Positions 17,837 to 34,744 of a DNA stretch of 36,872 nt are shown piece by piece. The notes under the pieces were generated by a model that was not told the origin of the DNA, ran no database searches, and worked only from the letters and a program-made list of their open reading frames with translations. Every line of letters begins with the position of its first letter. Within the stretch, counting starts at the first letter, position 1. Both the position numbers and the translations under genes were made by a program. Source of the DNA: an uncultured Methanobrevibacter sp. (GTDB lineage: Archaea > Methanobacteriota > Methanobacteria > Methanobacteriales > Methanobacteriaceae); the NCBI RefSeq assembly GCF_947166415.1, contig NZ_CAMVEE010000002.1:60279-97150 (forward strand), read 5' to 3'.

Positions 17837-19543
17837 TTAAAATTCAAAACCCAATAATGTTCCTTCAATTGAATTGTCATTCAATTCTAAAACAACATGA
17901 TCTGAAATATTGAAATTTAAATTGTCCGGAATAGAATCAGAATTCAACATACATATATATTGCATATCAAATTTTGTTGTTTTTTCATAAATTAAATTTA
18001 AAGCACTAGCATATTGTCTAGAATCAACACCATCAAAAATATTGCTATCATGAATTAAGAAATCTATGTAATTATAATCAACAAAATTTTCTAATAACAT
18101 TAAATCATAACATAAGACAATCATTCTAGTTTTTCCAGTACTATTTATCCTAGGAATATCTACACTATATTCAAATCCTTTCTCAGAACATTCAATAATT
18201 AAATCTCCAGGAACATCATATAAATAAGAAGAATTATCACTAAACGTATTGATTAAAGAATTTAAATGATTTTTATTTTCATCATAATTGATTTGGAATC
18301 TAGATTCTAAATCCAATAATTTTATTTTTAATTTATTTTTTTTATCAGAAATTTCATCAAATTGCTTTATAACAGATACAATTGATTCATATTCACTTTT
18401 TTGTTCAGCATAATATTTTTGCATATTGTTATATTCATTTAAAGCTCCAAAATTATTTAAAATATCCATACATTCAGCTTTTTTATCAGATTTGTTTTCA
18501 ATTTCCTGATTAATTAGGACTAATTCATTTTTTATTGATTGAATTTCTGTTTTTAAAAAATTAGTTCTATTGAAAATTATATTTTTATGAAATTCTTTAG
18601 ATTCACTTATTGTTTTTTTAACATTATTCGGAAAATAAAAATTTACTTCATTATATATCTCTTCTACATTAATATCATCAATTTTTTCTTCTTTAATAGA
18701 TTCTTCATATATATCAATTTTTTTATTTAAAAAAATAGTTCGTTCAAATAATTCTTGAATTTCTTTACTTAATCTATCTGCAGATTTTTCAATTTGCTTA
18801 TAAGATTCATGAACTCTGTAATTATCCAAATCATTTTTAATTTTAGTTAGATCATTCTTTAATCTATTCATTTCTGGAACTAACTGCCCTTTTGATCCAT
18901 AAAGATTTTTTAAGTTAGAAAAATTTTTATTTAATCTTTTCACTTCATCTTCATATTCCTTATATTTAGACATTAATTTCCAATCAAGACCCACACAAAA
19001 ACTTGTACAATCAATTACATCAATGTTATTATATGTAGAACTTGTTTTGAAAGGAGATTTCTTGATATCTTCATCTCTGCGTATAAAATAACTAATCACT
19101 TTCCTAAATGTAGGTTTAAATCTAAATTCCTTTTCATTTTTCAAACCTAATAACGAAGTTCCCAAAACCTCTTTCCATTCATTCAGAGTATAAAAATAAA
19201 TTTCTTTTTCTTTAGAGTAAGTAGGTTTTAAAGGAAACTTACTAAAGTTTCCTTCAACAATAATAATCGATTTTTCATCAAATGACCTCTTAGCATAAAT
19301 TTTCTCATTGTATATATCTATGCTAATTGTAAATTCCCAATCATTAAATGTATCCTCAGGCAAATAGTCTTTATTTGGAGTTCCACCTAAGCAAAAATGA
19401 ATTATATGCACTAATGTAGTTTTTCCAAGCCCATTTCGAGACTTTTCAGTATTATCATCACCCTCTGCCAATATTATATTAATACCTTTATTAAACTGTA
19501 TCTTTTTAAAACTATTCTTATTAGCATATAATTCATGAATCAT
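17837..19543 (-). CDS. ABC-3C system ATPase (DUF2326, SMC/RecN-like)
   Basis: 568 aa from the ATG at 19543 (MIHELYANKNSFKK), the usual start for this family; an upstream TTG or ATG would add eight residues. Walker A is SRNGLGKTTL at about residues 35-45. A long central coiled coil (about 200-430) carries the SMC-like arms. Near the C-terminus RINSTGKTRMIVLCYDLMLL is the signature-like segment and FLIHDSNIFDGVDSRQ the Walker B/D-loop. DUF2326 ATPases are the ATPase component of ABC-three-component conflict systems, thought to sense invading DNA. The gene overlaps the middle-component gene by 11 nt. Confidence 0.9.
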   Translation of the reverse strand: MIHELYANKNSFKKIQFNKGINIILAEGDDNTEKSRNGLGKTTLVHIIHFCLGGTPNKDYLPEDTFNDWEFTISIDIYNEKIYAKRSFDEKSIIIVEGNFSKFPLKPTYSKEKEIYFYTLNEWKEVLGTSLLGLKNEKEFRFKPTFRKVISYFIRRDEDIKKSPFKTSSTYNNIDVIDCTSFCVGLDWKLMSKYKEYEDEVKRLNKNFSNLKNLYGSKGQLVPEMNRLKNDLTKIKNDLDNYRVHESYKQIEKSADRLSKEIQELFERTIFLNKKIDIYEESIKEEKIDDINVEEIYNEVNFYFPNNVKKTISESKEFHKNIIFNRTNFLKTEIQSIKNELVLINQEIENKSDKKAECMDILNNFGALNEYNNMQKYYAEQKSEYESIVSVIKQFDEISDKKNKLKIKLLDLESRFQINYDENKNHLNSLINTFSDNSSYLYDVPGDLIIECSEKGFEYSVDIPRINSTGKTRMIVLCYDLMLLENFVDYNYIDFLIHDSNIFDGVDSRQYASALNLIYEKTTKFDMQYICMLNSDSIPDNLNFNISDHVVLELNDNSIEGTLLGFEF

Positions 19544-19766
19544 TATTAATTCTCCTAATTTTATCATTTTTGAGTTCGATTAAATTAAGAATATATAACA
19601 TGTCGAGAGTAATAATAAACCTCTCATAATTGTTCACAGATTTATTATCATTTACTTGATTCCATAATTCTGAAACAGAAGAGGGAACATCTAATTTATC
19701 CAGCAATAATGCTCCAACATATAATAATGAATCTTTTTCTTCTAGGAATTTGTTTGGCAAAATCAT
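19533..19766 (-). CDS. ABC-3C middle component 6
   Basis: 77 aa, ATG at 19766, overlapping the HNH gene upstream by 4 nt and the ATPase gene downstream. The sequence MILPNKFLEEKDSLLYVGA, followed by SVSELWNQV and the helix FIITLDMLYILNLIEL, matches the short MC6 family that bridges the DUF2326 ATPase and the effector subunit. It has a wHTH-like fold by family knowledge. The tight overlaps make the three-gene unit certain as an operon. Confidence 0.85.
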   Translation of the reverse strand: MILPNKFLEEKDSLLYVGALLLDKLDVPSSVSELWNQVNDNKSVNNYERFIITLDMLYILNLIELKNDKIRRINNDS

Positions 19767-20524
19767 TTTTCAAAAACCTCACACAATTCAAACATATAAC
19801 ATAAAACAGATAATGCAGCAGCATTTTCACTAAATGAATATGAATCATTTTGTATATACTCCCATAATTCAAGAAAAATCTCATCATTATCATCATGTTT
19901 TTCTTTAAGTTCTAAATACTTATCTTTAAAAAATGATTTTAATGTATTGATAAATTTTTTATCTACTTTATCCATCTCTGTTACAAAAGATTTAACTTCA
20001 TAGGTCTTCATAAGCCCAATATCCAATAATCGTTTAACTTGACTGCTAAAATCATTTTTATTGATTTTATCTGAAACATCAATATGCTCAAATTCTTCAA
20101 ATGAAAATGAAGGATTATAATCTCCAGAAGAAATGTTTCTAATTATTATATCTAATTCTTTAGAAGAAATTTCCAAATTTGATACTTCTAACTGTTCATC
20201 TACCCATTTTTCATGATTACTTTTTATTTCATGTAATTTGGAGGGAGGATAAGAATTAGATTGTTTATCAACTTTTTTATGACATGTGGGGCACAGCAAT
20301 ATTAAATTTTCATAATCATCTAATTTATCTTTTGGATAGTTGCCATCACCTCTTGGTCCATCTTCACTTGAACCAATAATATGCGCTATTTCACCAATTT
20401 GGGCAGCTTCATCTTTTTTGGTTGCATTCAATGTTATTTTTGTTCTGCACATAGAACAGCGCCCACCAGCAAATCCAAATAACTTTTTAATAGTTAATTG
20501 GCTGTAATTTCGATTTGATGACAT
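19763..20524 (-). CDS. ABC-3C effector: HNH nuclease with ABC-3C C-terminal domain
   Basis: 253 aa, ATG at 20524. The N-terminal half is an HNH endonuclease with zinc Cys pairs: CSMCRTK near residue 20 and LLCPTCHKKVD near residue 95, plus the catalytic GEIAHIIGSSEDGPRG and YENLILL. The C-terminal half (about 125-253) is helical and fits the ABC-3C CTD that joins effector and middle component. It would cut DNA when the ATPase is triggered. A TTTAAATTG-type TATA element lies about 30 nt upstream. It starts the ABC-3C operon. Confidence 0.85.
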   Translation of the reverse strand: MSSNRNYSQLTIKKLFGFAGGRCSMCRTKITLNATKKDEAAQIGEIAHIIGSSEDGPRGDGNYPKDKLDDYENLILLCPTCHKKVDKQSNSYPPSKLHEIKSNHEKWVDEQLEVSNLEISSKELDIIIRNISSGDYNPSFSFEEFEHIDVSDKINKNDFSSQVKRLLDIGLMKTYEVKSFVTEMDKVDKKFINTLKSFFKDKYLELKEKHDDNDEIFLELWEYIQNDSYSFSENAAALSVLCYMFELCEVFEK

Positions 20525-20733
20525 ATAATTATATATGATCTAATACAATTTAAAGTTACTGACTTACAAATATTATGTACTTGGGAACATATTTTAGTTA
20601 ATAAGATACGTAATATATCGTATATAATTTAATGACATTCGGTTGTGTAATTGTTATCTGAAATATGTAGTCAATTTAATTTTAATTAAGAACTCGCAGT
20701 GTTTGGTAATGACATTGAAATATAGTAAGTATT

Positions 20734-20812
20734 GGATAATTGGATTCGAATCCACGAAGCACTAAGCAATAGGCCCTGAACCTATCTCATTTGGTCCCTC
20801 TGACACATACCT
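20734..20812 (-). pseudogene. Decayed tRNA-Leu(CAG)-like sequence
   Basis: Read on the minus strand it has a D-arm (TCA/TGA stem, GGGACC loop), a perfect 5-bp anticodon stem ATAGG/CCTAT closing TTCAGGG (anticodon CAG), and a long variable arm ending GCTTCG. A T-loop-like TGGATTCGAATCCA follows. The T-stem and acceptor stem do not pair (3' ATTATCC against a non-complementary 5' end), so it is not a working tRNA. The rest of the 650-nt gap 20525-21175 is T/A-rich spacer without a convincing ORF. A tRNA remnant beside a defence island suggests an old integration or recombination point. Confidence 0.4.
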
Positions 20813-21175
20813 ATTAAAAAAATTAGATATATTTTATTCTTTAATTCTAGATTAAACTACTTTATTGAAATCTTTTTTAAGTTATGTTTTCAATCTTTCT
20901 ATTAATTGAACTATGTTTCTTTTTTGTTTTTTTACTGTTTTTCTCAGACATATGGACAAGAAGGCAGTTTTATGATTAGAATTTTTTAACGGATGTCACT
21001 TTAACGGTTGATGAACTGTAAGATAATTTCTGTCACCTAAAATTGTATATTAATTATTATTATATATTGTGCTTTAAAATTTTATTTTATCAACATCAAT
21101 GTAATTTTTAGTTTTATATTGTAATTTTATGCTTTTCTTATTCTTTTTCTTATTTCATGTTTTATTATAATATAA

Positions 21176-22684
21176 TTAGAAATTTAATAAAAAATTTAAA
21201 GATTGGTCTTCAGGAGTTATTTCTTGTATTTCAGATTCTAAATTTAAATTAAGTTTAATAGGGTATTTAAATATATTCAAATCTTTAATTGGAATTGCAT
21301 AACCTTGAAATATATCTTCAAAATATTCAAAAAAGTCTTCTTTACTCATTATTGAATTTCTTTTAAATGTGTTCCACATATTTATTGGAGTATTTTTAAT
21401 TAATTCATCAATTTTAAAATAACCTAAAATTTCTCTATTATTTTTAGAATAAATAAAACAGTTTCCAAAATGCTCTTCAGTAAAAAATTTTTTAAAAATC
21501 ATGCGTTTTTTCTTATTTAATATATTATTAATTTCTTTTTCATAAAATAACATTATAAAATTCTTTTTTGTAGGTTTATTTAGTTCATTTACATACTCTT
21601 CTAGTCTTACTCTATTTTTTATGGATTGAACAACGCCACTATAACCTGGAAATAGATTTTCTTCAGAATATCCCTCTAAATATAATTCATTTAAGATGTA
21701 ATGTTTTAAATCTCCGGGGATAATAAACTTATAAAATATTTTTTCATTATGAGGAATGATAAAATCATTTAATCCATAAAGTTTAACATAATTTTTAATT
21801 TTTGCTTTAGGATCAATATTATTTATTACATCTTCTATTATAATCTGGTCTAAAGGTCGCCTATCAAAATTATAGTTTTCACTAATAATAAAGGTAAATA
21901 ACCCTTTTTGTCCCATCAAATTTTTGTTTGAATTATACTCGGGTCTGTAAAATTGTAATTTATATGGGTGCGGATGACCGGGGATATAACTATTTTCAAA
22001 TAATTTATAATTAAAAGCCCATAAAACACAGTCATCAGTGTTGTTGTGTAAAATATTGTTTGTTGCAAAATATAAAGAAGATTTATAATCATAAGACCAA
22101 TCCATAGCTTGGGTAGGTAATCCATAATGTTGAGCTAATGAAATTATTTCAAAAAAATCTAAATTAGGCCATTTATTTTTTGGTGGTTTAAATTCAATTG
22201 TTTCATGGATTAAACGTCTAATGGTTGGAGTAGTGGAAATTTTCAAACCACTTTTATCTGCCCAGTTTAAAAATTTTAAGAGAACATATAATTCTCTTTT
22301 ATATTGTATTTCATTTTCTGATTTGACCCAACATTGTGCAGGAGTATTATCTTTCATTTCTTTAGAATTTTTATTCAAAAGAATTGTCTTACCTTCTTCA
22401 TTTAATTTTTTATAAGTTTCATATGGAATTTTGCATCTTCTAAAATGATCTGCTGCTGAAGTTAGTTCATATACGCAAAATTTTGAATCAATATAGTTAT
22501 TTATCATGTAATTTCCGTTTTCATCTTTTCTTAAAGCAGATGGAATTAATTCATATTTACTACTTCCTAAACCTCTAAAAATATAATTTTCACGAAAATT
22601 AGGGGATTTTCCTTGAAGTTTTTCAATTAATTCTTCATATGATTTAATTTTAATTATTTCAATAAAATCTTCGAAATTAACCAT
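21176..22684 (-). CDS. FRG-domain protein, last gene of the helicase/PLD cluster
   Basis: 502 aa, ATG at 22684 behind an AGAGAGG ribosome binding site. YIFRGLGSSKYELIPSALR at about residues 33-52 is the FRG motif that names the domain. The second half of the domain is LAQHYGLPTQAMDWSYDYKS followed by LYFATNN at about 185-215. The C-terminal 200 residues are charged and unassigned. FRG proteins are common in defence islands and are suspected to act on nucleotides or as effectors, but the activity is unproven. It lies 94 nt after the second PLD gene, so it may have its own promoter while remaining part of the cluster. Confidence 0.8.
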   Translation of the reverse strand: MVNFEDFIEIIKIKSYEELIEKLQGKSPNFRENYIFRGLGSSKYELIPSALRKDENGNYMINNYIDSKFCVYELTSAADHFRRCKIPYETYKKLNEEGKTILLNKNSKEMKDNTPAQCWVKSENEIQYKRELYVLLKFLNWADKSGLKISTTPTIRRLIHETIEFKPPKNKWPNLDFFEIISLAQHYGLPTQAMDWSYDYKSSLYFATNNILHNNTDDCVLWAFNYKLFENSYIPGHPHPYKLQFYRPEYNSNKNLMGQKGLFTFIISENYNFDRRPLDQIIIEDVINNIDPKAKIKNYVKLYGLNDFIIPHNEKIFYKFIIPGDLKHYILNELYLEGYSEENLFPGYSGVVQSIKNRVRLEEYVNELNKPTKKNFIMLFYEKEINNILNKKKRMIFKKFFTEEHFGNCFIYSKNNREILGYFKIDELIKNTPINMWNTFKRNSIMSKEDFFEYFEDIFQGYAIPIKDLNIFKYPIKLNLNLESEIQEITPEDQSLNFLLNF

Positions 22685-22778
22685 TATTGCCTCTCTAAAT
22701 ATTTTTGAACCTACTTTTTTTTAAATTTTATTTTATTTTATTTTCATTAAGTAATATTAATTATATAATTTATCTTGG

Positions 22779-24284
22779 TTAGAACGTTTTATAAATTATG
22801 CATTCATGATGGTTTAATTGGTTCCACAAATCATCAAATGCTTCAATAATTAATTCTGGATAAGGTATTAACTGTAAGATGTGATGTTTTTTTCCAAAAG
22901 AATTTACTGACGTTCCAAGCGAATAAACTTTTGGTTCTTTATAAATATTATTTGAAGGAAATATTAAAAATCTATCGTGGAATGGATAACCGTAAGTTCC
23001 ATGTTGCATTCTCACTTCTAGGTTTAAGTTTAAACCATATTGTTTTTTAATCTTAAATCCTTTTTTAATTTCATTAATCTTTCCAGCTTTTTTTGAAGTA
23101 ATTGCTCTAAGAGGAACGTTAAGTGTTTCCGAATAATATAATGTCTTAAAAATTTCATCTGCAGTTAGATAAGGATCCCATAAATAAACTCCATTTGCAC
23201 CATTTTCGGAAATTAGTTTTTGCAAATCCTTCACGGCATTTTGTTCTTCATTATATTGTTTAAATGATAATTTATTTGATAATCCAATTTTTTTAATATG
23301 GTTTACAGAGTGATTTATTTCATCATTGTAATCTAGGGGTCTTCGTTTGATTATTGGAGAAATTTTATTTAAAGGAATTCTTTTAAGTTTACCGTTTTCA
23401 TAAAATTCCCTTACATAATCTTGTGACACGACTTTTGCATTAATACTTAAATCATGCATGTAGTCCCCAACATCATGATACAATATTAAATTATCTTCTA
23501 AATTATAAATTGTAGTTTCTATCCCTCCATATGAAAAATTATCGAATATAAATTCTTCTTCATCAAATGTTTTTAATTTTTTAGTTGAACTTCCTATAAT
23601 AATGTTATCTTGTTTTGAAGTCACTGTCACAATGCCATTTGGTGTTTCGTTTAATTTTTCATTCCAGCTAATTGATATTTTTGTCCGATCAAATTCAGTT
23701 ACAAACTGATTAACATTTAATATGGTTATGGGGAATTGAAAAATAAAATTTCCAATTCTTTCAGGCACAATTTTAAATTTAAAATCTAATATTTCTTCAA
23801 TATGATTACAAATTTTATTAAACTCTTTATAATTCTTATTGAATGAAAATTCTTTTTTAGAATTAAAAAATTCCAAAATATATGAAGATTGCACTGCATC
23901 TTCTTTAATTAAAATTTCCTCTAATCGATTTTGTTTTTTCAATGAAATGAATTGTTTTGGAATTAATTCCAATGATTTTTGTTTGAATTCATTGTCATCT
24001 GAATTAATCCAAATATTATTCTTCAAAGATTCAAATCTATTTTTCACTTCTTCAATTGTTAAATAATACTTTTGAATGCCTAATGAATAGTTTTTATTTA
24101 TGTTTTCAGGGGTGTGCGTTAAATATCTTGCTAATTTTCCATTATACTCTGATTCAGTAAAATAAATTAATGTATAAAGGTTTAAGATAGTATTATCTGA
24201 TTTATTTATTAAAAATATTTCAGTTACTTCGCAACTTTTATAAAAACCCAGTTTTTCAGGGGACAATAGTAAATTAAAAATCAT
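22779..24284 (-). CDS. Half-PLD nuclease-like protein B (C-terminal HDRF/GTSxN domain)
   Basis: 501 aa, ATG at 24284. The C-terminal 140 residues form a phospholipase-D-type half-site: GVYLWDPYLTADEI, LRAITSKKAG, then PFHDRFLIFP and SLGTSVNSFG. The canonical HxK(x)nGS/TxN becomes HDR with GTSVN. The N-terminal 350 residues have no domain I can name with confidence; the layout recalls VPA1262-type proteins, from memory only. It shares its C-terminal domain with the product at 25495-26691. Two half-sites are normally needed to make one PLD active centre, so the pair may form a heterodimer. It sits 69 nt after the helical protein gene. Confidence 0.65.
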   Translation of the reverse strand: MIFNLLLSPEKLGFYKSCEVTEIFLINKSDNTILNLYTLIYFTESEYNGKLARYLTHTPENINKNYSLGIQKYYLTIEEVKNRFESLKNNIWINSDDNEFKQKSLELIPKQFISLKKQNRLEEILIKEDAVQSSYILEFFNSKKEFSFNKNYKEFNKICNHIEEILDFKFKIVPERIGNFIFQFPITILNVNQFVTEFDRTKISISWNEKLNETPNGIVTVTSKQDNIIIGSSTKKLKTFDEEEFIFDNFSYGGIETTIYNLEDNLILYHDVGDYMHDLSINAKVVSQDYVREFYENGKLKRIPLNKISPIIKRRPLDYNDEINHSVNHIKKIGLSNKLSFKQYNEEQNAVKDLQKLISENGANGVYLWDPYLTADEIFKTLYYSETLNVPLRAITSKKAGKINEIKKGFKIKKQYGLNLNLEVRMQHGTYGYPFHDRFLIFPSNNIYKEPKVYSLGTSVNSFGKKHHILQLIPYPELIIEAFDDLWNQLNHHECIIYKTF

Positions 24285-24353
24285 CTCTTTTCACTAATTT
24301 AAGCATATTTAAATTTTCAAATAATTTATAATAAATTTAATTTGATGGATGTG

Positions 24354-25493
24354 TTATGAGTGTAGGTTACATTCAGCTAACAGTTCATCAAATTTTTCAC
24401 TTTTTTTAATGTCAATTAAATATTTTTCATATCGAACTTCCTTATCTAGTTCTGAAATATATTTTAGATTATTTTTAGAGTCATTTATTAATTTTTCCAC
24501 TTTATTAATTTCTGATGAATTTAATAAACTTAAAAAGATTTTCCAATCATTCATGTCTATTGTAATGAATTTATTACTAAATTTATTTTTCAATTTATTT
24601 AAAGTGATTCTTAATAATTCATCTTTTGGAATAATTTCTAATTCATGTAACACATTAAATAATTGTGATAATTCTCTTAAATTTTTTATTTCTAAATCAT
24701 TGAAAATGCTATAAAAAATATCATAATTGTCTTTAAGAATATTTGCAACATCAATTAGAATTTTCTTGCTTTTTGGAGATTTGATATAATCTAGAATAAT
24801 TCTTATTAATAATGGGAGTTCTATTCTTTTTAAAATATTAAAATTATGGTGCCACATTTCAACATCAGATTTAAATCGGCTATTTTCATTTGTAAATGGT
24901 TCTATTAGATAATTAAATAATGCATACATCTTTAAATCATCATCAAAGTTAAAATCAATATCATTGTTTATTTTCAAATTATTAATTATTTTGTCTTTTA
25001 ATAGTGATATAAATAGATAATTATGTTTTTCATTAAACATCAATTTAAAAAAATACTTTTTATCATATTTATAAATCCAATTTAATAATAAGATAAGTGG
25101 TTGAGGTATAGAAAATGGAATGGGCCACCATTCCTTAATAAATGAATAATAATTATGATAAGGAGTAACAGGAAAATATTTATAGTTAATATTTAAGTGG
25201 CCTTTGAAATATTGCATTAAATATCCTTTTAGATTTGAATATGATTTTAATTTAGTGATATTGGGTAAATCATTAATATTTTCAATATCTCTATTTAAAA
25301 ATCCAATATAAAAGGCAAAAGTATATTTCATTTTATCTTTTTTTCGAAAATCTTTAATTATTGTTTCAAATTTTTCTTCTTCTAATTCAATTTCTGATAT
25401 TTTATATAATTCATTTAAAAAAGAAGATTCACTGATTTCTAAACCCTCTATCATGATTTTATCAATGATTTTTTCTAAATCTTCAAGTTCCAT
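24354..25493 (-). CDS. Unrecognised alpha-helical cluster protein
   Basis: 379 aa from ATG 25493, chosen because GGAGGAATAAA precedes it and it starts one nt after the stop of the PLD A gene. It is rich in Lys, Asn, Ile and Leu, and almost entirely helical by inspection, with no membrane segment or metal motif. A Trp/Pro-rich piece (EWWPIPFSIPQPLILLLNWI) near residue 120 is the only distinctive feature. Repeated helix pairs in the second half suggest an alpha-solenoid scaffold. Being placed between the two half-PLD genes, it could be the subunit that joins them or recognises the trigger. I do not recognise the family. Confidence 0.7.
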   Translation of the reverse strand: MELEDLEKIIDKIMIEGLEISESSFLNELYKISEIELEEEKFETIIKDFRKKDKMKYTFAFYIGFLNRDIENINDLPNITKLKSYSNLKGYLMQYFKGHLNINYKYFPVTPYHNYYSFIKEWWPIPFSIPQPLILLLNWIYKYDKKYFFKLMFNEKHNYLFISLLKDKIINNLKINNDIDFNFDDDLKMYALFNYLIEPFTNENSRFKSDVEMWHHNFNILKRIELPLLIRIILDYIKSPKSKKILIDVANILKDNYDIFYSIFNDLEIKNLRELSQLFNVLHELEIIPKDELLRITLNKLKNKFSNKFITIDMNDWKIFLSLLNSSEINKVEKLINDSKNNLKYISELDKEVRYEKYLIDIKKSEKFDELLAECNLHS

Positions 25494-25494
25494 T

Positions 25495-26691
25495 TTATTC
25501 CTCCAAGTTGTATATGTTATCTGAAACAATATCATCGTACAAAATATTAAAAATTTCTTTAGAACATAATGAATCTAATTTTACTATATTTGAATAATTA
25601 TTCCCATAAGAATTTAAAGAGGTTCCCATTTGATAACCAATAATTGATTTAGCTGTTTTTGAAAATATAAAACGGTCATGAAAAGATTCTTTTGCTTTAA
25701 TAAAATTTAAATTTTTTAAATTCAATCCCCTAAATGCATCCCTTGCATTTTCACTTAATTCTCTTTTAAACTTATTAAATGTAATACCATTTGTTTCACA
25801 AAAAACAATATTTTTAACATTATCAGTCTTACATAAAAGTGTAACAATATTTATTAAACCTGAAATGCCTCCATTATCATCGCTAATCGCATATGGGTCA
25901 TATATCCAAATTTCTCCTGAAAGACTCATTAGTTCTTCAAATATTGATAATGCTTTTAAACGTTCATTTTTTCTTAAAAATTTACATAAATTTTTTTCTA
26001 ATTTCTTATTCTTTTTAATACTTGATGATTCAATATTTAAATATGCTGAAATAGAATCTAGGGAGGCATTATCGCTTATTACAAATGAATCTTCAATTCC
26101 TTTTGTAATATTAATTTTCTTTTTAGTGCCCAGTAACTCTTTTTGCATCGTGTTAGTTATAGTTCTAATATTCATGCCGATTGAACGAATAATATTATAT
26201 TTAGCTTTATAAATTAAATGATTTTCAAAAAATATTTCAATTTCATAGTTATTCCAATCACCTTGTGAGTATATTTCATAACCATTAGTCACATCTTCAA
26301 AAATATAAGATTCCAAAATTATATCATTCAATTTAAATTTAACAATTGCAGTTCCTTTAACATCTTCTCCTTTTAGAGTCAAATAAGGAAATGTTTCAGA
26401 GTTATGACTTTCGCTAAATATTTTCACTGGAGAAAAAATGATCAAGTTTCCGCTCCCAGAAGCAGTTATTGGATAATTACAATATTCTTTAACAAAATTA
26501 AATAATATTTCAAATTCATCATCAGACACATTTAATTTATTATTTTCCACTATGGAATTATCTGTTTGATTAACAAATTCTTTATAAAATGTACTATAAT
26601 TTCCATAGGGATTCTTCTCATGGTTGCAATCAAGGAAACCTTCAATTACAAAATCTGATTTAAAATCAGTAAAAATCTTTATTTTCATCAT
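25495..26691 (-). CDS. Half-PLD nuclease-like protein A (C-terminal HDRF/GTSxN domain)
   Basis: 398 aa from the ATG at 26691; the frame reaches a TTG at 26709, and the start lies inside the end of a 54-aa ORF. The C-terminal domain has IWIYDPYAISDDNGG, IVFCETNGITF, then ESFHDRFIFSKT and YQMGTSLNSYGNN, the same HDRF...GTSxNS(F/Y)G signature as the product at 22779-24284. The N-terminal 200 residues are mostly beta (KGTAIVKFKLNDIILESYIF) and differ from those of the partner. It is likely a nuclease subunit, since PLD-type domains of this kind cut DNA in several defence systems. The His is present in both; Lys is replaced by Arg. Confidence 0.65.
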   Translation of the reverse strand: MMKIKIFTDFKSDFVIEGFLDCNHEKNPYGNYSTFYKEFVNQTDNSIVENNKLNVSDDEFEILFNFVKEYCNYPITASGSGNLIIFSPVKIFSESHNSETFPYLTLKGEDVKGTAIVKFKLNDIILESYIFEDVTNGYEIYSQGDWNNYEIEIFFENHLIYKAKYNIIRSIGMNIRTITNTMQKELLGTKKKINITKGIEDSFVISDNASLDSISAYLNIESSSIKKNKKLEKNLCKFLRKNERLKALSIFEELMSLSGEIWIYDPYAISDDNGGISGLINIVTLLCKTDNVKNIVFCETNGITFNKFKRELSENARDAFRGLNLKNLNFIKAKESFHDRFIFSKTAKSIIGYQMGTSLNSYGNNYSNIVKLDSLCSKEIFNILYDDIVSDNIYNLEE

Positions 26692-26830
26692 TAAATTCTT
26701 TAAAAACAATTTTATTGCCTGAAATATTTATAAATTCTTCTAATATTCTATTTTCAATATGTTTTTCCATTTTTTCATGACACAATGTTAGAATTTTATC
26801 GTCATTCCAATAAACTTCTTGAATTATCAA
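26666..26830 (-). CDS. 54-aa ORF between the Zn/TM and PLD A genes (TTG start)
   Basis: The sequence between 26691 and 26833 holds a frame that starts with TTG at 26830, 2 nt after the TAA of the preceding gene and 6 nt after GAGGG. It runs to a TGA at 26666-26668. The product begins MIIQEVYWNDDKILTLCHEK and ends NDENKDFY. It overlaps the PLD A start by 26 nt, and its codon use is like its neighbours. The length, spacing and ribosome binding site make it a likely real gene that annotation by length alone would miss. No domain is recognised; a small antitoxin-like or adaptor role is only a guess. Confidence 0.55.
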   Translation of the reverse strand: MIIQEVYWNDDKILTLCHEKMEKHIENRILEEFINISGNKIVFKEFNDENKDFY

Positions 26831-26832
26831 TT

Positions 26833-27327
26833 TTATCCCTCAAATATTTGTAAATAAATTTGAACACATATTAAAATTAAATTCACAATACTCACTCCAG
26901 TCATTATCCAAGTTAGGTTTTTCGTTGTTTTATTTTGATTAAAACTTTCTTTATTTAATCTAGATGATGATTCTTCAGATGTTTTAACAAAATTATATAA
27001 TCTTGCGTTGCTGATTATTTGTGAAGTTTCTGCTGGTGAACACCAATTAGGTTTAGATTTTATGTCTAGTAGACCATACATTCCGTATTGTTTTTTTGTA
27101 ATGTTTTCTTTAAACTTACACATTTTTCTAAGATTATTTAATTGTTTACAATAATCATATGCTGGACAAAATCTAATTTCCCAAATGTTGCCTTTAAAAT
27201 TTTGTTTGTAAATTGCTTTTTTAACACACTCTTCACAGCAATAATATTGTTTATCATCATTAACATAGTGTGCATATTCATCAATTTCATTACCGCAAAT
27301 ACTACAGTTATCGTTAATTCTTTTCAT
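26833..27327 (-). CDS. Zinc-binding protein with C-terminal membrane anchor
   Basis: 164 aa, ATG at 27327, overlapping the helicase gene by 14 nt, with GGAG nine nt upstream. The N-terminus has a treble-clef-like zinc site: CSICGNEID then YYCCEECVKKA (about residues 8-36). More Cys/His residues follow (FCPAYDYCKQL, RKMCKFKE). The last 25 residues (LTWIMTGVSIVNLILICVQI) form one membrane helix, so the protein is tail-anchored with the zinc part in the cytoplasm. In a defence operon this suggests either a membrane-disrupting effector or the anchor that holds the complex at the membrane. No known family is recognised. Confidence 0.75.
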   Translation of the reverse strand: MKRINDNCSICGNEIDEYAHYVNDDKQYYCCEECVKKAIYKQNFKGNIWEIRFCPAYDYCKQLNNLRKMCKFKENITKKQYGMYGLLDIKSKPNWCSPAETSQIISNARLYNFVKTSEESSSRLNKESFNQNKTTKNLTWIMTGVSIVNLILICVQIYLQIFEG

Positions 27328-29140
27328 ATATATTCTCCATATTAGTAAGATTTATCATACAATTTTCATTTTGGCAATGTTTAATAAATTCATTGAAAGT
27401 GGGGTGATGTTTCAATGTTTCAGTATTTCCAATAACTATTAATTTTCTTTTTGCACGAGTTAAAGCAACATTTATTCGCTGGTCATTAATAAATCCCGTT
27501 TCATTATCATCATTGCTCCTAACAGGGGATAAAATTATTATTTCCTTTTCTTTTCCTTGAAACCCATCTACTGTATTTACTTCAACATCAATCATTTTTT
27601 TAATCAAATCAACTTGATCATTATAAAGGGATATAATTCCAACATTCTCTTTATCAATGGTTAATTTCAGATATTTGTCTGCAATTTCAGATGCAATTTT
27701 AGCTTCCAAGGCATTAAATGTCGAGGTACTGTTCTCATATTGTTTTTCTTTATTATTTTCCAATGATTTTGTATCTAAAAACACTAAAGGACTTTCTATG
27801 TCGCACTTCCCAAATCTTTCATCTATTTTTATATTTTTATAATTCTTGTCACATTTTAATCTATTGTTATAGAATTTCTTGTTTGGAAATTTCATCAAAG
27901 TTTCATTCATCCTATGTTGAATATTCAAGAATTGTTTTTGACTAGGAAAATTATTAATAAGTTTTTTAAATAAAGTCTCTTCTAATTCAACACATTTACT
28001 TTTAACTGTGGGTGGCAATTGCTTATGATCACCTGCTAAAATAAATTTATCAGCTTTTGATATGGGCAATAATACTTTAGGGATAGTTGTTTGTGATGCT
28101 TCATCAATAACTGCAACACCAAAGGAAACATTATTAAGAACATCTAATGTAGAGGATGAGTTAGTGGTTAGAACTATTTCGCTTTCAGATATGATTTCTG
28201 ATTCAATTTCTTGTTTTAATAGATTATTTTTAGCATATAATTGATTAATTAGAAATTTGTCATAATTTGGCTTATTAGTTAATTTTTTTATTTTCTTGAG
28301 GTTTTTTGAAATCTCTTTATATTTTGGATGATTTTTAAATTTAAAGTTCAAAGTTGCTTTTCTAACCTTATAATTAATTTTATGCTCATTACCGATTCTT
28401 GTTATATTTAATTTTGTTGGCATTAATCTTTCAACAATATTATCAACAGCTGCATTACTATCAGCAGTTACTAATACTTTATGATTTTTGGCTTCTTGGC
28501 GAATTAATTCAACCAAGGTTGTAGTTTTTCCAGTTCCAAATGGTCCATGGATTAAAAAGAAATCTTCACTTTTTAAACTTCTAATCACGGCTCTTTTTTG
28601 TGATTTATTGAGATGTTTGTCATAAAAATTAATGTATTTTATTCTTTTTTTATTTGGAGGATTTAAATTATTTAATGCATATTGAAGAGCCATAAATACA
28701 TTGGGGTTTTGTTTATATAAATTTAAATTTTCAATCATTTTCATATATTCACTATCCCTGACAAATAAATCAATTCTTGCTTTATCAGGTATTCCCCATT
28801 CTAAAATTTTTTCGTTATCAAATACAACTAAAATAGAGTTTGATCTTTTTTCATAAACTTTGCCCTTTAAAATTTTTTCAGGATGATTTTCGTCACTCAC
28901 TAAAACGGTATCTAATTCATTTATGTCTGTGTTTATTTTTTCATCTTTTTTGAATTTTACAGTGATTGGGAATTTATGTATTCTACGTCCAGAAATATTT
29001 CTAATTGTATTTTCACCATTTGATTCATGATTTTGAAGTAACTCAATGAGTTTTTTCTGCATTTCTTTTTCTTCAAAATTTCTCTCATGCATAATAAGAT
29101 TAATTAATTTATTTTTATATTCTTCTGGCAATGATATCAC
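27314..29140 (-). CDS. SF1B helicase of UPF1/IGHMBP2 type, first gene of the cluster
   Basis: 608 aa from a GTG at 29140. All SF1 motifs are intact: Walker A LIHGPFGTGKTTT (about residue 200), VLVTADSNAAVDN (Ia), VAVIDEASQ (II), LAGDHKQLPP (III), QHRM (IV), TVDGFQGKEKEIIILSPVRS (V) and RINVALTRAKRKL (VI). The N-terminal 170 residues include a beta-barrel-like 1B region. UPF1-like helicases unwind DNA or RNA 5' to 3', and related ones drive the Mokosh defence systems together with a PLD nuclease. Here it leads an operon with two half-PLD proteins. No kinase or nuclease domain is fused to it, unlike Mokosh I or II as I know them. Confidence 0.9.
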   Translation of the reverse strand: MISLPEEYKNKLINLIMHERNFEEKEMQKKLIELLQNHESNGENTIRNISGRRIHKFPITVKFKKDEKINTDINELDTVLVSDENHPEKILKGKVYEKRSNSILVVFDNEKILEWGIPDKARIDLFVRDSEYMKMIENLNLYKQNPNVFMALQYALNNLNPPNKKRIKYINFYDKHLNKSQKRAVIRSLKSEDFFLIHGPFGTGKTTTLVELIRQEAKNHKVLVTADSNAAVDNIVERLMPTKLNITRIGNEHKINYKVRKATLNFKFKNHPKYKEISKNLKKIKKLTNKPNYDKFLINQLYAKNNLLKQEIESEIISESEIVLTTNSSSTLDVLNNVSFGVAVIDEASQTTIPKVLLPISKADKFILAGDHKQLPPTVKSKCVELEETLFKKLINNFPSQKQFLNIQHRMNETLMKFPNKKFYNNRLKCDKNYKNIKIDERFGKCDIESPLVFLDTKSLENNKEKQYENSTSTFNALEAKIASEIADKYLKLTIDKENVGIISLYNDQVDLIKKMIDVEVNTVDGFQGKEKEIIILSPVRSNDDNETGFINDQRINVALTRAKRKLIVIGNTETLKHHPTFNEFIKHCQNENCMINLTNMENIYEKN

Positions 29141-29226
29141 TTAAAAATTTGGTTAATAGTATATTATTTTAAATACTATTTAAACTATAAGAGAGAGCAT
29201 TTGCAAAGTATTATTGTGGTGATACA
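29141..29226. promoter_or_regulatory. Divergent promoter region between helicase and HEPN genes
   Basis: The 86-nt gap must hold both promoters. TTTAAATAGTATTTAAAATA lies on the minus strand in its middle (about 29161-29185), and the palindromic TTTAAAT/ATTTAAA pieces could serve both directions. Shared control of the two sides is likely. Confidence 0.4.
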
Positions 29227-30081
29227 TTGACTCAAAATAAAATAGACATTGAAAACTATGAATTAATAATACCTTTTTCTTTAATTTCATACCCTCCGAT
29301 TGTGGTTGATATAGAATTATGTGAATTTGACATTAACAATTTAAACCTTAAATTAACAAAAAATAACAACAAATATTATTTGAATGTATCAAATTTTGAT
29401 GATAAGTCTGAAATATGTGATTTTATAGAGAATTTTGAATTTTTTATAAAATATTATACATTAGGAAGGGAATACTGTGCTATTGAGTATGATGAGAATG
29501 AAATATATCCTAAAGGAATTAGTATGGAATTAAAAGAGGTACAAATAAAAGAAACTTCTGATCGTTTTGAAAAAGAATTAGAGAAAACTTTAACCGGTAA
29601 ATATGAATTAACTGAAGATTTAAAATTAGCATTGGATATATATTCAAAACACGCACAATATAACAAAAAAAGCCAATATTTAGATTTAATTACTATATTG
29701 GAAATATTAAAGCCCACTTATCCAGTTTCAGATAAATCTTTAAAAGCTATTGGTGAAATTAAAAAGGATATGAAATCAATTCGAAAGAATTTTAAAAATG
29801 GGTCTGAAGAGTTTAAGGAATTTGATAGATATTTCCATGACTTAAAGTTTTGGGAGGATAAGTCTATTAATAGTTCATTACAAAAATTTGCAAATGGGCA
29901 TCAAGAAGATTTTAAGGAATTTAAAGATATTGATGATAAACTTAAAAGGGCATATGCTATACGTAGCAATATTACTCATAATGGATTTATTGATGATGAC
30001 TTTGAGAAATATTATAATTTTTTAAGGAAATTTGTTGGGAAATTATTAAAAATAATGATTGATGAATCTAGAAGAGATTAA
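29227..30081 (+). CDS. HEPN-domain protein (RX4H ribonuclease motif)
   Basis: 284 aa from a TTG at 29227, after GGTGATACA. The C-terminal third carries LKRAYAIRSNITHNGFID, where R-S-N-I-T-H is the RX4H motif of HEPN RNases; YLDLITILEILKP and the following helices complete the fold, similar to Apea-like HEPN proteins. The N-terminal 100 residues are beta-rich and unassigned. HEPN proteins usually cleave RNA as dimers in defence and toxin systems. It is divergent from the helicase operon and could be its RNA-cutting arm or a separate system with the DUF2971 gene 51 nt downstream. Confidence 0.75.
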   Translation: MTQNKIDIENYELIIPFSLISYPPIVVDIELCEFDINNLNLKLTKNNNKYYLNVSNFDDKSEICDFIENFEFFIKYYTLGREYCAIEYDENEIYPKGISMELKEVQIKETSDRFEKELEKTLTGKYELTEDLKLALDIYSKHAQYNKKSQYLDLITILEILKPTYPVSDKSLKAIGEIKKDMKSIRKNFKNGSEEFKEFDRYFHDLKFWEDKSINSSLQKFANGHQEDFKEFKDIDDKLKRAYAIRSNITHNGFIDDDFEKYYNFLRKFVGKLLKIMIDESRRD

Positions 30082-30132
30082 ATTTATTGTTTTATCATAT
30101 CAAATGAGTAAATAACATTTAATATTGTAGAA

Positions 30133-31134
30133 GTGATTAATCCAATGTGGAAAAAGAAATACCATAAATTATATTTTCAGGATACCCGAGATATTAAATC
30201 ACAAGCTGAAGCTTCAATTTTAAAAGAGGATAATTTTCCTAAACTTCTTTTTAAATACATGAAAGCAGAACATGCAATAAATTCTCTCGAAGATGATTTC
30301 ATAAAAGTTTCAGACCCCTTCCATGTCAACGATCCATTTGAGGGGGAAATGCTTTTTGATTATGAAATGATATCTCAACAATATAAGGATGATTTGCTCA
30401 TTCGACAGCGGGAGGATCCGAATTTGAACTTCTCTGATGAAGACAAAAACTTAATTGTCAACAGCGAAAATCCTCTAAATTCATTCATGGATATTGTTTA
30501 TAATAATGATTCGGGCAGGGGTGAGGGCTTAACAATGGAGGAATTCAAATTAGAGTTTGTGGAGACTTTTGACGAGTTTGCCCAGTATAGTGTAAAAAAT
30601 TATAATCATGAACTGAAAAAACAGATGCTTTTTGTTTGCTTATCCGAATCGAATAATATTATTCCAATGTGGGCACATTATGCAGGCAATCACACAGGAG
30701 TATGTATTGGATATGACCTTACGGATTTTGAGTTGGGTTCTGAAGAAACATGTCATCCTATTTTATATGTTCAGGGCTCTGATTTTACAGAGGAAATCAA
30801 TAACATTGATAATGCTGAGCGAAACAAATTGAAAGTTTTGGAAGAGCCGTTTTTGAAAAAGTCACATGACTGGAGTTATGAGAAGGAATGGCGGATACTA
30901 ATTGATAAAATGAAATTAAGGCAAGCATTAAAATTAGGATTTTCATCTGTTATGGATAGACGTGAGGATTTATGCTTTATTAAATTTCCAAAACCTGTCT
31001 GTGTATTTTTGGGGTTGAATATTTCGGCTGATTGTAAACAAGAAATTATAAAAATTTGTAAAGAACGTGGAATAACAATTTATAAAATGATTAAAGATTC
31101 AAGCAGGTATAATTTAAGTCATATGGAAATTTAA
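30133..31134 (+). CDS. DUF2971 protein (ART-like fold suspected)
   Basis: 333 aa from a GTG at 30133 (an ATG lies four codons on). It has the DUF2971 landmarks in order: LFKYMKAEHAINSLEDDFI and FHVNDPFEGE at the N-terminus, MWAHYAGNHTGVCIGYDL in the centre, SHDWSYEKEWRIL, and VCVFLGLNIS. This family occurs beside toxins and defence genes and is thought by some to resemble ADP-ribosyltransferases, though activity is not established. GC content is higher than in the preceding HEPN gene, which hints at a different origin. It ends the defence island. Confidence 0.8.
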   Translation: MINPMWKKKYHKLYFQDTRDIKSQAEASILKEDNFPKLLFKYMKAEHAINSLEDDFIKVSDPFHVNDPFEGEMLFDYEMISQQYKDDLLIRQREDPNLNFSDEDKNLIVNSENPLNSFMDIVYNNDSGRGEGLTMEEFKLEFVETFDEFAQYSVKNYNHELKKQMLFVCLSESNNIIPMWAHYAGNHTGVCIGYDLTDFELGSEETCHPILYVQGSDFTEEINNIDNAERNKLKVLEEPFLKKSHDWSYEKEWRILIDKMKLRQALKLGFSSVMDRREDLCFIKFPKPVCVFLGLNISADCKQEIIKICKERGITIYKMIKDSSRYNLSHMEI

Positions 31135-31288
31135 ATTGTTTAATTCGAATACATTGCCTTACACAATTCCTTGAAGGTAATTAAATGATTCTATTAGATT
31201 TAAATTTCGGATTATTTAAGTGAAGTATTTATCTCATCCATTTGTTTAATCAACTCTACTTTCAAGCATTGTCATGCCTTTTCCACAT

Positions 31289-32131
31289 CTAGATATAGCT
31301 TTTCATATAGTTGACCAGATCATCTTTAAACTCATTATCATCCAATGCAAATTCGATTGAGGTCTTAAGCCATTCGAGTCTGTTTCCAATGTCATAGGTT
31401 TTGCCTTCAAATGCGACTCCATAAATTGAATCCAGTTTTTGAAGGGCATCGGTAAGCTGAATTTCACCGCCAACTCCAGGCTCTGTCTCATCAATCTTGT
31501 CAAAAATATCTGGTGTCAGCACATACCTGCCCATTATTGCAAGGTTGGATGGTGCCTTATCCATTGGTGGTTTTTCAACCAGTTCTTCGATTTTGTAGAT
31601 GTCCTTTTCAGCTTCGATTCCTTTAATGATTCCATATCTTTCAACTTTTTCTGGTGGAACCTCTTCAAGAGAGATTGCAGATGCATTGTACTTATTGTAA
31701 ACACCTATTAACTGTTTGGTACATGGGGTGGGACCTTTAGTGATCGAATCACCTAAAAGAACAGCGAAAGGTTCTCCTCAAATATGTCTTTGGCCGCATT
31801 TGATTGCATCGCCCAATCCGTTTTGCTCTTTTTGTCTGACATAACAGATGTCTGCCAAGTCAGTAATTTTTCTGATTTCCTTAAGGTCATGGTCTTTTCC
31901 TGCCTTTTGAAGGTTGTATTCAAGTTCATAGTACTTGTCGAAATGGTCTTCAATGGATCTTTTGTGTCTTCCTGTGACTATGATGATGTCATTGATTCCT
32001 GAAGCCACTGCCTCTTCGACAACATACTGGATGGTTGGCTTGTCATAGACCGGTAACATTTCCTTTGGTTGAGCTTTAGTTGCGGGAAGGAACCTGGTTC
32101 CTAATCCTGCGGCGGGAATAATTGCTTTCAT
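31289..32131 (-). pseudogene. galU: UTP-glucose-1-phosphate uridylyltransferase, interrupted by one TGA
   Basis: The reading frame from ATG 32131 to the stop at 31289 encodes a full-length GalU (281 codons). [20 protein letters not shown] with KEMLP is the nucleotide-binding signature, LLGDSI the metal-site Asp region, and APSNLAIMGRYVLTPDIFD plus GGEIQLTDAL the C-terminal marks. Codon 118 (31780-31778) is TGA, lying between KCGQRHI and GEPFAVLLGD, where relatives have Gly; GGA to TGA is one base change. No frameshift or other stop is present. GalU makes UDP-glucose for glycolipids and surface glycans. It may be a fresh pseudogene, a sequencing error or recoding; the first two are most likely. 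Confidence 0.85.
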
Positions 32132-32283
32132 GTATTTATATTGTATTTGGCTATGGATAAATTATGTGGAAAATCTTGGTTTTGATTTTGTGTTATAAAG
32201 ACACGGCGGATGATTTTTTAACATTTTATGGTGGTTCCCATTTGCTCACAAGTTTAGTTTTTTTAGACACAAGTTAGTTTAGG

Positions 32284-32531
32284 TTTATTCTTTTTTAGTA
32301 ACAATATTTTTAGTCACAAGTTAATTTAGGGTTATACTTTTTTAGTAACAATTCTTTCATGAACATTGGTTTTGCAGAATATTTTGAATGAAAATATACG
32401 TTGGATGATTTTTGAATAAGTTTTTATTAAGAGATTATTAAGACTTATCCCTTTTTAGTAACAAGGTTTAGATAAGTTTTTATTAAGTTTTTATTTAGTT
32501 ATTATTTACACTTATCCCTTTTTAGTAACAA
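32284..32531. repeat. Array of four about 22-nt repeats ending TTTTTAGTAACAA
   Basis: Copies lie at 32284-32305, 32331-32352, 32443-32464 and 32510-32531. All share TTAT-x-C-x-x-TTTTTAGTAACAA; the last two are identical over 22 nt (ACTTATCCCTTTTTAGTAAC plus AA). A second motif, ATAAGTTTTTATTAAG, precedes copies 3 and 4. Spacing is 47, 112 and 67 nt, too irregular for CRISPR. The gap 32132-32749 contains no gene that I can see. Tandem terminators, protein-binding sites or a decayed element are possible. Confidence 0.6.
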
Positions 32532-32749
32532 TGTTTTTTCAGAAATACGTATATTTCTGCTTAAAAAAGAATATGGAGACTAAACTCCACTATCGTATTA
32601 CATAATCAATCTTGCTTAATGTATGGCTCATCCATGACGGAATTGTTAGTTAAAGATAATTTGAAGAATATTTTTGATAGTTAGTAAAATCAACCCACAA
32701 CCGACTGATATAATCAGCAGTTACCTGAAATGGAGATTTCAATATCCTA

Positions 32750-33511
32750 TCAGTTTCTTCTTTTAAAAACCAACACTGCCAGGGACAATAAAAGCAACAC
32801 AAGAGGATTGCCTGTCTCATGACTTCCATTCACTTTGGCGAATCTAGTCTTTTTAAAGGATGCGTTTGTGTGATTTTGTGTAAGGTTCTCTTTGATGTTT
32901 GTCTGGTTTGTAGTGTTTTGGGAAGTGCTGTCTGATCCATTTCCTGTTGAGTTTTGAGTCAGGTTGTTTTGAAGAGTTATGTTTCTGAAATATATCTTGT
33001 ATGCGAAGTAATTCTGATACTCGTTGATGTTGGATATGAAGTTTCTGAAACTATAAACCATTTCAGTGGTGTCGTTGACTTTCAAAACACCATCATTGGG
33101 CACCTTGACAGTTGCAGATTTCTCGATGATTTTTTCATATAATGTCTGATTGAACTTGCTGAACTGCTTGTTGTCGGTGAATTTCCAAATCATATGCTGG
33201 GTGGCAATGACGTCACGCTGTGACTCCTCATAGAAATATACAAAGAATGTTTTTATGTTATTGTCGACATCCTCGTCATGGACATAGAACTTATCGCCCT
33301 TTTCAGCTGAATGCTCACCCCATTCAATACAATATCCCTTGTACCCGTCGCTGAAGCTGATATTGGAATCTCCGCTTTCAAGAGCTTCAGTCATAGGCTC
33401 ATCTGATAGGTACTGAGTAGGATTGTCCACAACAGTCGTGTTGTTCCCGGCCATGACCGGGGAAATTGTTATTACCAGTATGGCAAAAATGAGAATTAAT
33501 TTCATTTTCAT
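32750..33511 (-). CDS. Secreted surface protein with TQXA thioester domain
   Basis: 253 aa. Residues 1-21 (MKMKLILIFAILVITISPVM) are a signal peptide. The domain at about 45-175 has GYCIEWGEHS and, 50 residues on, ATQHMIWKFTD. These match the Cys and TQxxIW elements of thioester domains, in which Cys and Gln form an internal thioester that can bind host surfaces covalently. An Asn/Thr-rich stalk with many N-x-T sites follows (about 180-225). The C-terminus is HETGNPLVLLLLSLAVLVFK then RRN, an anchor like that of the giant adhesin. A TTTATATAA box 20-30 nt before the ATG implies a leaderless message. Confidence 0.8.
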   Translation of the reverse strand: MKMKLILIFAILVITISPVMAGNNTTVVDNPTQYLSDEPMTEALESGDSNISFSDGYKGYCIEWGEHSAEKGDKFYVHDEDVDNNIKTFFVYFYEESQRDVIATQHMIWKFTDNKQFSKFNQTLYEKIIEKSATVKVPNDGVLKVNDTTEMVYSFRNFISNINEYQNYFAYKIYFRNITLQNNLTQNSTGNGSDSTSQNTTNQTNIKENLTQNHTNASFKKTRFAKVNGSHETGNPLVLLLLSLAVLVFKRRN

Positions 33512-33694
33512 GGTGATATGTATTTTGGGTATTATATAAATTATTTTCCATTTGGAAAATTCTAAAACAGGGTTAGTGGGTTAAATTTAACTAATTATAG
33601 GGGATTTTATGTTTATTGATGAAAATGAGTGTTTTAGTTAATAAGGTTATAATTAGTGTGGAATAGAATTAAAACAATCTTACATAAAATCAAT

Positions 33695-34633
33695 TTAAAA
33701 ATCAAATAACGTTGTTTGTTTTGGCTCAATATATCTTATTACTTCAGTATCAATTAGATTATCACTTTCTTTTAGGTGTCCAAGCAATAATGGTGATTTC
33801 TCATCATGCAACTTAATAACATTCTTAGGAATATCAGGTTTTCGATTTGCGTAGCAATATTTACACTCACTTAAACAGGAATTATATGCTCCAATATCTC
33901 TTGAAGGAATACAATGACAGTTTTCTCTAATTCCACTAGCTTTAACATTTTTATAGACCACACCATGTGCCTGTTCCAATATTTCACGAGTTGTGCAACC
34001 TGCAGCATGTATACCATATTTTTCATAGCTTTCATTTGTTGCACAGGTTTGCGTATAAAGATTATACTTCTCGGATATCTCACCAATCCCTTTCAATAGC
34101 CTCACTTTATCATCATCAGTGAGTGGAATTATTTCAGGCATATTCTCTTCAACTTTTTTGTACATGTCCACAAAGCTGAATATGCATCTGTAAACCAAAG
34201 AGGCAATAGCTTCAGCCATATACTCAAAAGTTTCCAGATGTTTTTCAACTGTATATTTTTCAGTAAGCAGTATAGGGTCATATCTCCAGAGAATCTTATT
34301 CCTACCGACAATATCAGATAGTCTTTCCAACGTTTTAATAGATTGATTTATTGTTGGAACTTTAGGTTCTATATCCTTGCCGTATGCAGTAATCGTGTAG
34401 TTGCACAGAATATTGTATTTTTCATCAATACCTCCTATATGTTCCAGTATAGGTTGGTAGTTTTTGGAGCAAAACAGCAAGCAATCCACATCTTCAGGCC
34501 TTAAACTTAACTTATACACATTCTCTCTTGCAAAGGGATTTCTTGAATATGCATATCCTTCACTAAGCCTGTTCAGTAGCCATGGAGTGTAGTAGTTCAC
34601 TATGTCTGTTCTTCCGCCAACATTTATTATCAT
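33695..34633 (-). CDS. DUF1848 protein with C-terminal PIP-box-like tail
   Basis: 312 aa, ATG at 34633. It opens MIINVGGRTDIVNYYTPWLL, the DUF1848 start, with a Cys-containing LLFCSKNYQP segment and WRYDPILLTEKY. Near residue 250 it has NCHCIPSRDIGAYNSC then LSECKYCYAN, so a CxxxCxxC that could hold a [4Fe-4S] cluster in radical-SAM fashion. After SPLLLGHLKESDN the chain ends IEPKQTTLFDF. QTTLFDF resembles the PCNA-binding tail of archaeal RFC (QATLFDF, from memory). The role of DUF1848 is unknown; a sliding-clamp-tethered DNA modification or repair enzyme is inference. Its paralogue is 243 nt upstream. Confidence 0.8.
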   Translation of the reverse strand: MIINVGGRTDIVNYYTPWLLNRLSEGYAYSRNPFARENVYKLSLRPEDVDCLLFCSKNYQPILEHIGGIDEKYNILCNYTITAYGKDIEPKVPTINQSIKTLERLSDIVGRNKILWRYDPILLTEKYTVEKHLETFEYMAEAIASLVYRCIFSFVDMYKKVEENMPEIIPLTDDDKVRLLKGIGEISEKYNLYTQTCATNESYEKYGIHAAGCTTREILEQAHGVVYKNVKASGIRENCHCIPSRDIGAYNSCLSECKYCYANRKPDIPKNVIKLHDEKSPLLLGHLKESDNLIDTEVIRYIEPKQTTLFDF

Positions 34634-34744
34634 TTTATCACTTACTATTTTTGGTGATTATCACATTTTTTATTTGTGTTTTGGCCAGACTTATGGAGTC
34701 AGTTCTTACAAATAAATTTTGTTCAAGACAACATGATTATTTCT

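Follow-up and report, generated by a model that had tools for sequence, protein, structure and literature searches.

Gene organization of the cluster

We analysed a stretch of 36,872 nucleotides from an uncultured Methanobrevibacter sp. (contig NZ_CAMVEE010000002.1, positions 60,279 to 97,150), hereafter the window. It carries six co-directional genes on the minus strand (contig C2 of genome G000), encoding a helicase, a small cysteine-rich protein (Zn-TM), the predicted half-PLD proteins PLD A and PLD B with a helical protein between them, and an FRG-domain protein. This cluster is a variant of the helicase-plus-PLD logic, built around a nuclease-like family that is uncharacterised. In window coordinates, its features are as follows.

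27314..29140, minus strand: accessory helicase of the IGHMBP2/UPF1 type, superfamily 1 (SF1); 608 amino acids, GTG start; TIGR00376
26833..27327, minus strand: Zn-TM, small Cys-rich protein with a C-terminal hydrophobic stretch, as read from its sequence; 164 amino acids
26666..26830, minus strand: N-terminal piece of PLD A (the earlier "small ORF"), out of frame with the main part
25495..26709, minus strand: main frame of PLD A, VPA1262-like predicted half-PLD; motifs FHDRF and GTSLNSYG
24354..25493, minus strand: helical protein; 379 amino acids from the ATG at 25493
22779..24284, minus strand: PLD B, VPA1262 family; 501 amino acids, beta-rich N-terminal part and predicted C-terminal half-PLD fold
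21176..22684, minus strand: FRG-domain protein; 502 amino acids, PF08867, C-terminal part like PADLOC PDC-M11B

The helicase and Zn-TM genes overlap by 14 nucleotides (27314–27327). PLD A starts with TTG at 26830 after a gap of 2 nucleotides, and the helical gene follows PLD A after 1 nucleotide, with a ribosome-binding-like GGAGG lying within the end of PLD A. Gaps of 69 and 94 nucleotides then precede PLD B and the FRG gene, respectively. The original prediction described this strand and spacing correctly but counted seven genes; the number is six, because its "small ORF" represents the N-terminal end of PLD A, severed by a frameshift. Full-length relatives of PLD A are mostly 439–455 amino acids long (56 matches including its own, shorter rows and fragments among them), the 444-residue relative P0121 reads through the junction uninterrupted with 392 of 394 residues identical, and the PLD A profile matches both window pieces (small ORF, E 6.6e-20; main frame, E 6.4e-174), indicating that PLD A is frameshifted in the G000 assembly. 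In a second genome, G114, PLD A is open and encodes 444 amino acids.

Predicted fold of PLD A and PLD B

The VPA1262 family (NF040700 domain; NF040699 for the long form; function unknown) includes PLD B, as its score against the VPA1262_N domain of NF040700 is 180.9 bits, above the cut-off of 80; its relatives number at least 790 matches. PLD A reaches 61.9 bits (E 4.6e-17) against NF040700 and is homologous to PLD B by profile comparison (98.5%, E 1.6e-15). We term it VPA1262-like, since its homology is by profile only and its score lies below that cut-off. At E ≤1 neither protein matches any PADLOC family, nor does P0121 at 0.01.

In the AlphaFold2 model of PLD B (pLDDT 82, pTM 0.59), residues ~340–500 match Zucchini, NucT and Nuc, which are single-HKD PLD nucleases, by structure comparison. 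The PLD superfamily fold is accordingly a modelled one for PLD B, and it is predicted for PLD A through profile homology. Each protein carries a single motif, which bears out the earlier proposal of two separate half-PLD subunits. The canonical PLD motif is HxKxxxxD. In PLD A and PLD B the motif is FHDRF...GTSxN, of an HxR type, in which R replaces the K of HxK and the D at the canonical place is absent. HDRF is nevertheless kept in all 26 rows of alignment A4, which covers bacteria and archaea with rows from the PLD B family search, and GTSxN is invariant there.

The VPA1262 family and its usual two-gene module

One scan of genome contigs with the PLD B family yielded 79 loci (from the best 80 of 93 confirmed matches), in records read as Bacteroidota, Firmicutes, Proteobacteria, Spirochaetes, Methanobrevibacter and a few others; the Methanobrevibacter-named records hold loci L078 and L081. 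Flanks were short in many loci, and the search used FHDRF as one of its two patterns, so the conservation of this motif across the 79 is partly by construction. Directly downstream of VPA1262, 74 loci carry a partner gene on the same strand that encodes 342–533 amino acids and starts between 148 nucleotides before and 13 nucleotides after the VPA1262 stop. By BLAST (E < 1e-4), the 74 products connect into a single family. Each of the 79 loci has one VPA1262 gene, which is in two pieces at two loci. None of seven sampled partners has a Pfam or PADLOC match (E 0.01) and none of eight an NCBIfam match, and nothing in the PADLOC library matches the module convincingly, the sampled proteins giving one marginal hit of 13.2 bits.

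No BLAST family among the 442 neighbours of at least 120 amino acids within 5 kb recurs in more than 4 of the 79 loci, indicating that VPA1262 and its partner form a pair of their own whose surroundings vary. FRG relatives occur at one of these loci and DUF2971 relatives at two, and the available flanks contain neither an IGHMBP2-type helicase nor a Zn-TM relative at any of the 79. The family is found on 7 of 72,556 plasmid records (3 of the 7 predicted conjugative), once among 50,697 phage records, and once in viral contigs, with its partner. In the two plasmid regions viewed, the pair adjoins restriction endonuclease genes or a reverse transcriptase, a DUF4297 gene and an integrase. VPA1262 itself lies, in the available text of PMC1464126, within the integrase-bearing island VPaI-6.

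Ten other VPA1262 loci from the archaeal order of the window were compared (L022–L031), and the partner profile matches the next gene in nine of them. The tenth, L029 of genome G159, scores 161 bits, above the NF040700 cut-off; it is of a long HDRY type, and the VPA1262 and partner profiles both miss it. Its product (L029:10309-12495, 728 amino acids, with unknown bases at the start) has a long C-terminal region after DPF...FHDRY...LSNSIQ, and it is more like the long VPA1262 form (L189) than like the two-gene one. FRG relatives lie near VPA1262 in both L024 and L030; L023 and L025 hold shorter FRG pieces, and DUF2971 genes occur nearby in L022, L024 and L026. Two related genomes also encode, divergently from the VPA1262–partner pair, a 1071-amino-acid protein that reads as an NTPase with an N-terminal nuclease-like region (L023:11155-14370 and L024:6064-9279).

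The window departs from this arrangement. The partner profile finds nothing at E ≤0.1 among the 153 window open reading frames of at least 40 amino acids, and PLD A and the helical gene are present instead. Thus, whereas VPA1262 loci typically combine one VPA1262 gene with a partner and contain no IGHMBP2-type helicase, the window cluster has two homologues, no detectable partner, and in addition the helicase, Zn-TM and FRG genes.

The helical protein

The AlphaFold2 model of the helical protein is all-helical (pLDDT 87, pTM 0.84), and its relatives comprise 21 matches including its own. PLD A directly precedes it as VPA1262 precedes another gene elsewhere, so that the helical gene occupies the position taken by the partner. 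It might be a far-diverged partner: compared with the partner family by hhalign, it gives a Prob of 0.1–0.8, and its score of 21.9 exceeds all 150 column shuffles (maximum 18.8), but the reversed profile reaches 19.2. The helical gene also adjoins PLD A in the M. ruminantium-like genome G079, and three helical matches apparently come from the same source as a PLD A match. None of the best 120 of the 790 PLD B relatives apparently shares a source with those three pairs. PLD A and the helical protein are therefore the more durable pair. PLD A–helical probably stands in for the partner found after VPA1262 at other loci, and the core of the cluster is therefore most likely PLD A, the helical protein and PLD B.

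Helicase, Zn-TM and FRG proteins

The assignments of the helicase and FRG proteins in the original prediction were confirmed. The helicase scores 524 bits against TIGR00376, the IGHMBP2 family (cut-off 348.9), and its nearest solved structure is SMUBP-2/IGHMBP2 (4b3f, E 1.6e-59). A second copy in the same genome (G000:C7), 43–49% identical, is a paralogue, and some helicase match occurs in 129 of 150 genomes of the order. Similar accessory helicases without PLD genes are found at L159–L162.

Zn-TM reads as CxxC...CCxxC with the hydrophobic stretch at its C-terminus, and it reaches no Pfam or NCBIfam family over its cut-off. It has matches in 11 of the 150 genomes, G000 and G114 among them; PLD A occurs in none of the nine others, in one of which the Zn-TM relative adjoins an FRG gene. 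The FRG protein scores 52.8 bits against PF08867 (cut-off 25) and matches PADLOC PDC-S15 and PDC-M11B. Its PDC-M11B-like end, residues ~385–482, also matches phrog_3136, a phage family of unknown function.

Distribution and probable transfer of the cluster

The full 7,965-bp cluster is present, near-identical, in two of the 150 genomes, G000 and G114. Window positions 19679–32822 align to contig C3 of G114 with 99.78% identity over 13,149 columns (21 mismatches, 4 indels); identity of 99.6–100% continues to ~34750 and then falls to 67–92%. The resulting feature is:

19679..34750: segment near-identical to G114 contig C3, ~15 kb, right edge approximate

By comparison, the housekeeping region with the second helicase is 73.6% identical between the two genomes over 3,395 columns, and the next 480 columns are 88.5% identical. 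Because the segment is 99.8% identical against this background, it was probably transferred recently between the two archaeal species. At its right end lie two adjacent DUF1848 genes (33695–35668), and the second of these may be the edge of the transferred segment, as near-identity with G114 stops beside or within it. Farther left, 31289–32131 holds two out-of-frame pieces, which we take to be a galU-like UTP-glucose-1-phosphate uridylyltransferase; G114 shares them at 100% identity and carries a further copy of the stretch on the same contig at 75%.

Two of the four indels between the genomes disrupt half-PLD genes: the one at 26671 interrupts the window's PLD A, and the one at 23465 divides PLD B of G114. 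The other five genes of each copy, its second half-PLD gene among them, are open. Runs of 5 and 4 bases surround the two positions, unlike the long tracts that we would expect for phase variation. Since one half-PLD gene is frameshifted in each copy, either the assemblies err or neither copy fully works.

In G079, PLD A is split by a transposase-like gene (L032:8206-9714), with the helical gene directly next to it. Matches to the helicase, Zn-TM, PLD B and FRG proteins are absent from the 19 kb taken around it, and those to the helicase and Zn-TM are absent from the entire genome; PLD A–helical thus stands apart from both.

The earlier expectation of a multi-gene set travelling together is therefore borne out in part: the block seems to have passed between two species as a unit, but a conserved system of seven genes is not supported, the whole set having been seen in two genomes of 150. 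Its converse, neighbourhoods in which the genes never travel together, describes the helicase and Zn-TM to some extent and does not describe PLD A–helical.

Neighbouring genes

Around the cluster, the following genes were recognized:

29227..30081, plus strand: protein with an RxxxxH motif (RSNITH), HEPN-like by motif only
30133..31134, plus strand: DUF2971 protein, PADLOC candidate PDC-S31
17837..20524, minus strand: ABC-3C type module, PADLOC PDC-M68A/B (HNH-CTD 19763–20524, middle gene 19533–19766, DUF2326 ATPase 17837–19567)

Library matches uphold the ABC-3C and DUF2971 neighbours named originally, but for the first protein, labelled HEPN there, no Pfam or NCBIfam family scores over its cut-off. 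Beside the ABC-3C ATPase are two genes without Pfam matches (15193–17541), whose relatives, 86–91% identical, adjoin an accessory IGHMBP2-type helicase in G024 (L162). To the left of the island lies an open frame of 2544 amino acids (2235–9869), perhaps, as a guess, an adhesin-like surface protein.

Comparison with known defence systems

Mokosh combines a UPF1-type helicase with a PLD. The cluster resembles it in having an SF1 UPF1-type helicase beside a PLD-type protein, and the helicase scores 284.6 bits against the PADLOC MkoA model. However, it aligns only to positions 482–1096 of the 1112 in MkoA (PDLC03920), leaving the first ~480 unmatched; the PLD proteins match no PADLOC model, and the two half-PLD genes and the helical protein are extra.

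In the available text of PMC11090510, CoCoNuT Type III-C has a UPF1-like helicase with two PLD domains, the systems centre on an McrB-type GTPase, and wider types contain HEAT-like helical repeats. The cluster shares with Type III-C, so described, a UPF1-like helicase and two PLD-type domains, but its PLD halves are separate VPA1262-type proteins, and no Pfam match to the McrB-type GTPase (AAA_5) was listed for the 20 window proteins scanned (for the helicase, among the best 25 of 30 families). DISARM, Dpd and BRIGADE follow the same logic of a helicase plus a PLD nuclease, with YprA-family helicases according to the portion of PMC12458937 at hand, whereas the cluster helicase is of the SF1 IGHMBP2 type. 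No Drm model, and hence no DrmA, DrmB or DrmC, appears among the PADLOC matches of the 10 window proteins scanned. In Hachiman, the sensor helicase HamB restrains and then activates the nuclease HamA (PMC12278908, as excerpted); on that account its helicase and nuclease families differ from those of the cluster, and it serves as a model of mechanism only. By these comparisons, the cluster is a member of none of these named systems and at most works like them. Consistent with the original prediction, which set it apart from Mokosh and DISARM, no PADLOC model set accounts for it.

Possible mechanism and alternative explanations

We infer a defence role for the cluster and the formation of one complex by its proteins. 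Our tentative reading, with somewhat less than an even chance of being right, is that the six-gene cluster acts as a single nuclease machine against viruses. PLD A and PLD B would pair into a composite nuclease whose HxR-type site would cut viral nucleic acid, and the helical protein would restrain or target it. The helicase would open or supply single-stranded nucleic acid, as HamB does for HamA, while Zn-TM could anchor the complex at the membrane and the FRG protein could be an accessory effector. The helicase and Zn-TM would form a later, translationally coupled front end. A single apparatus is favoured by the coupling of four genes, their joint transfer and the exchange of the usual partner for PLD A–helical. 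It is unlikely, though conceivable, that the fuller scheme holds, in which VPA1262-type half-PLDs form a composite site that is gated by the helical protein, loaded by a captured copy of the housekeeping IGHMBP2 helicase and moved as one cassette, with the bacterial VPA1262–partner pair being both its simpler ancestor and an unnamed, widespread defence system.

Several findings weigh against a single apparatus. The two full copies look like one recent event, each with a frameshifted half-PLD gene, and PLD B and the FRG gene, after their wider gaps, may be separate transcripts. Almost as probably, the island stacks independent modules, in which the PLD A–helical pair, a VPA1262–FRG pair, and the helicase with Zn-TM each act alone and shared transfer reflects island mobility. 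PLD A–helical stands alone in G079, its three pairs of apparently common source share that source with none of the best 120 PLD B relatives, Zn-TM occurs without PLD A in nine genomes and once beside FRG, and accessory helicases occur without PLD genes. Such a helicase or Zn-TM is absent from the available flanks of all 79 VPA1262 loci, whose pairs share no neighbour family in more than four, and the VPA1262–partner pairs of L024 and L030 have FRG relatives nearby. Unrelated genes (DUF1848, DUF2971) are likewise part of the near-identical segment. However, four genes are coupled by the 14-nucleotide overlap and the 2- and 1-nucleotide gaps, and the partner of PLD B is missing just where PLD A–helical is present, suggesting that at least PLD A, the helical protein and PLD B belong together.

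The PLD-like proteins might instead be inactive folds serving as sensors or scaffolds, with the helicase or FRG protein as effector, which we regard as improbable. FAM83 and TrmB use a PLD-type fold as sensor or scaffold, and to our knowledge no nuclease activity is known for the folds of this type in TrmBL2, TrmB and FAM83. The top structural matches of PLD B include TrmBL2, TrmB and FAM83A/B, and the substituted K and missing D of the motif point the same way; yet the enzymes Nuc, NucT and Zucchini match as well, and HDRF and GTSxN are conserved in A4. Slightly more improbable is a decaying passenger island that suffers recurrent loss and has no present function in these strains. The indels at 26671 and 23465, the broken, presumably galU-like copy and the interrupted PLD A of G079 are all consistent with decay, but full-length relatives of PLD A, the helical protein and PLD B exist in public sequence, the remaining five genes of each copy are open, and single indels in 4–5-base runs can be assembly errors.

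Under the reading of a single nuclease apparatus, the archaeal version doubled the nuclease and gained a helicase. VPA1262 (NF040700), known by name only, gains a testable setting as a compact two-gene module of a predicted half-PLD nuclease and an unnamed partner. If the cluster defends its host, it would add one more system for methanogens and raise the question of how half-sites on two proteins make one nuclease.

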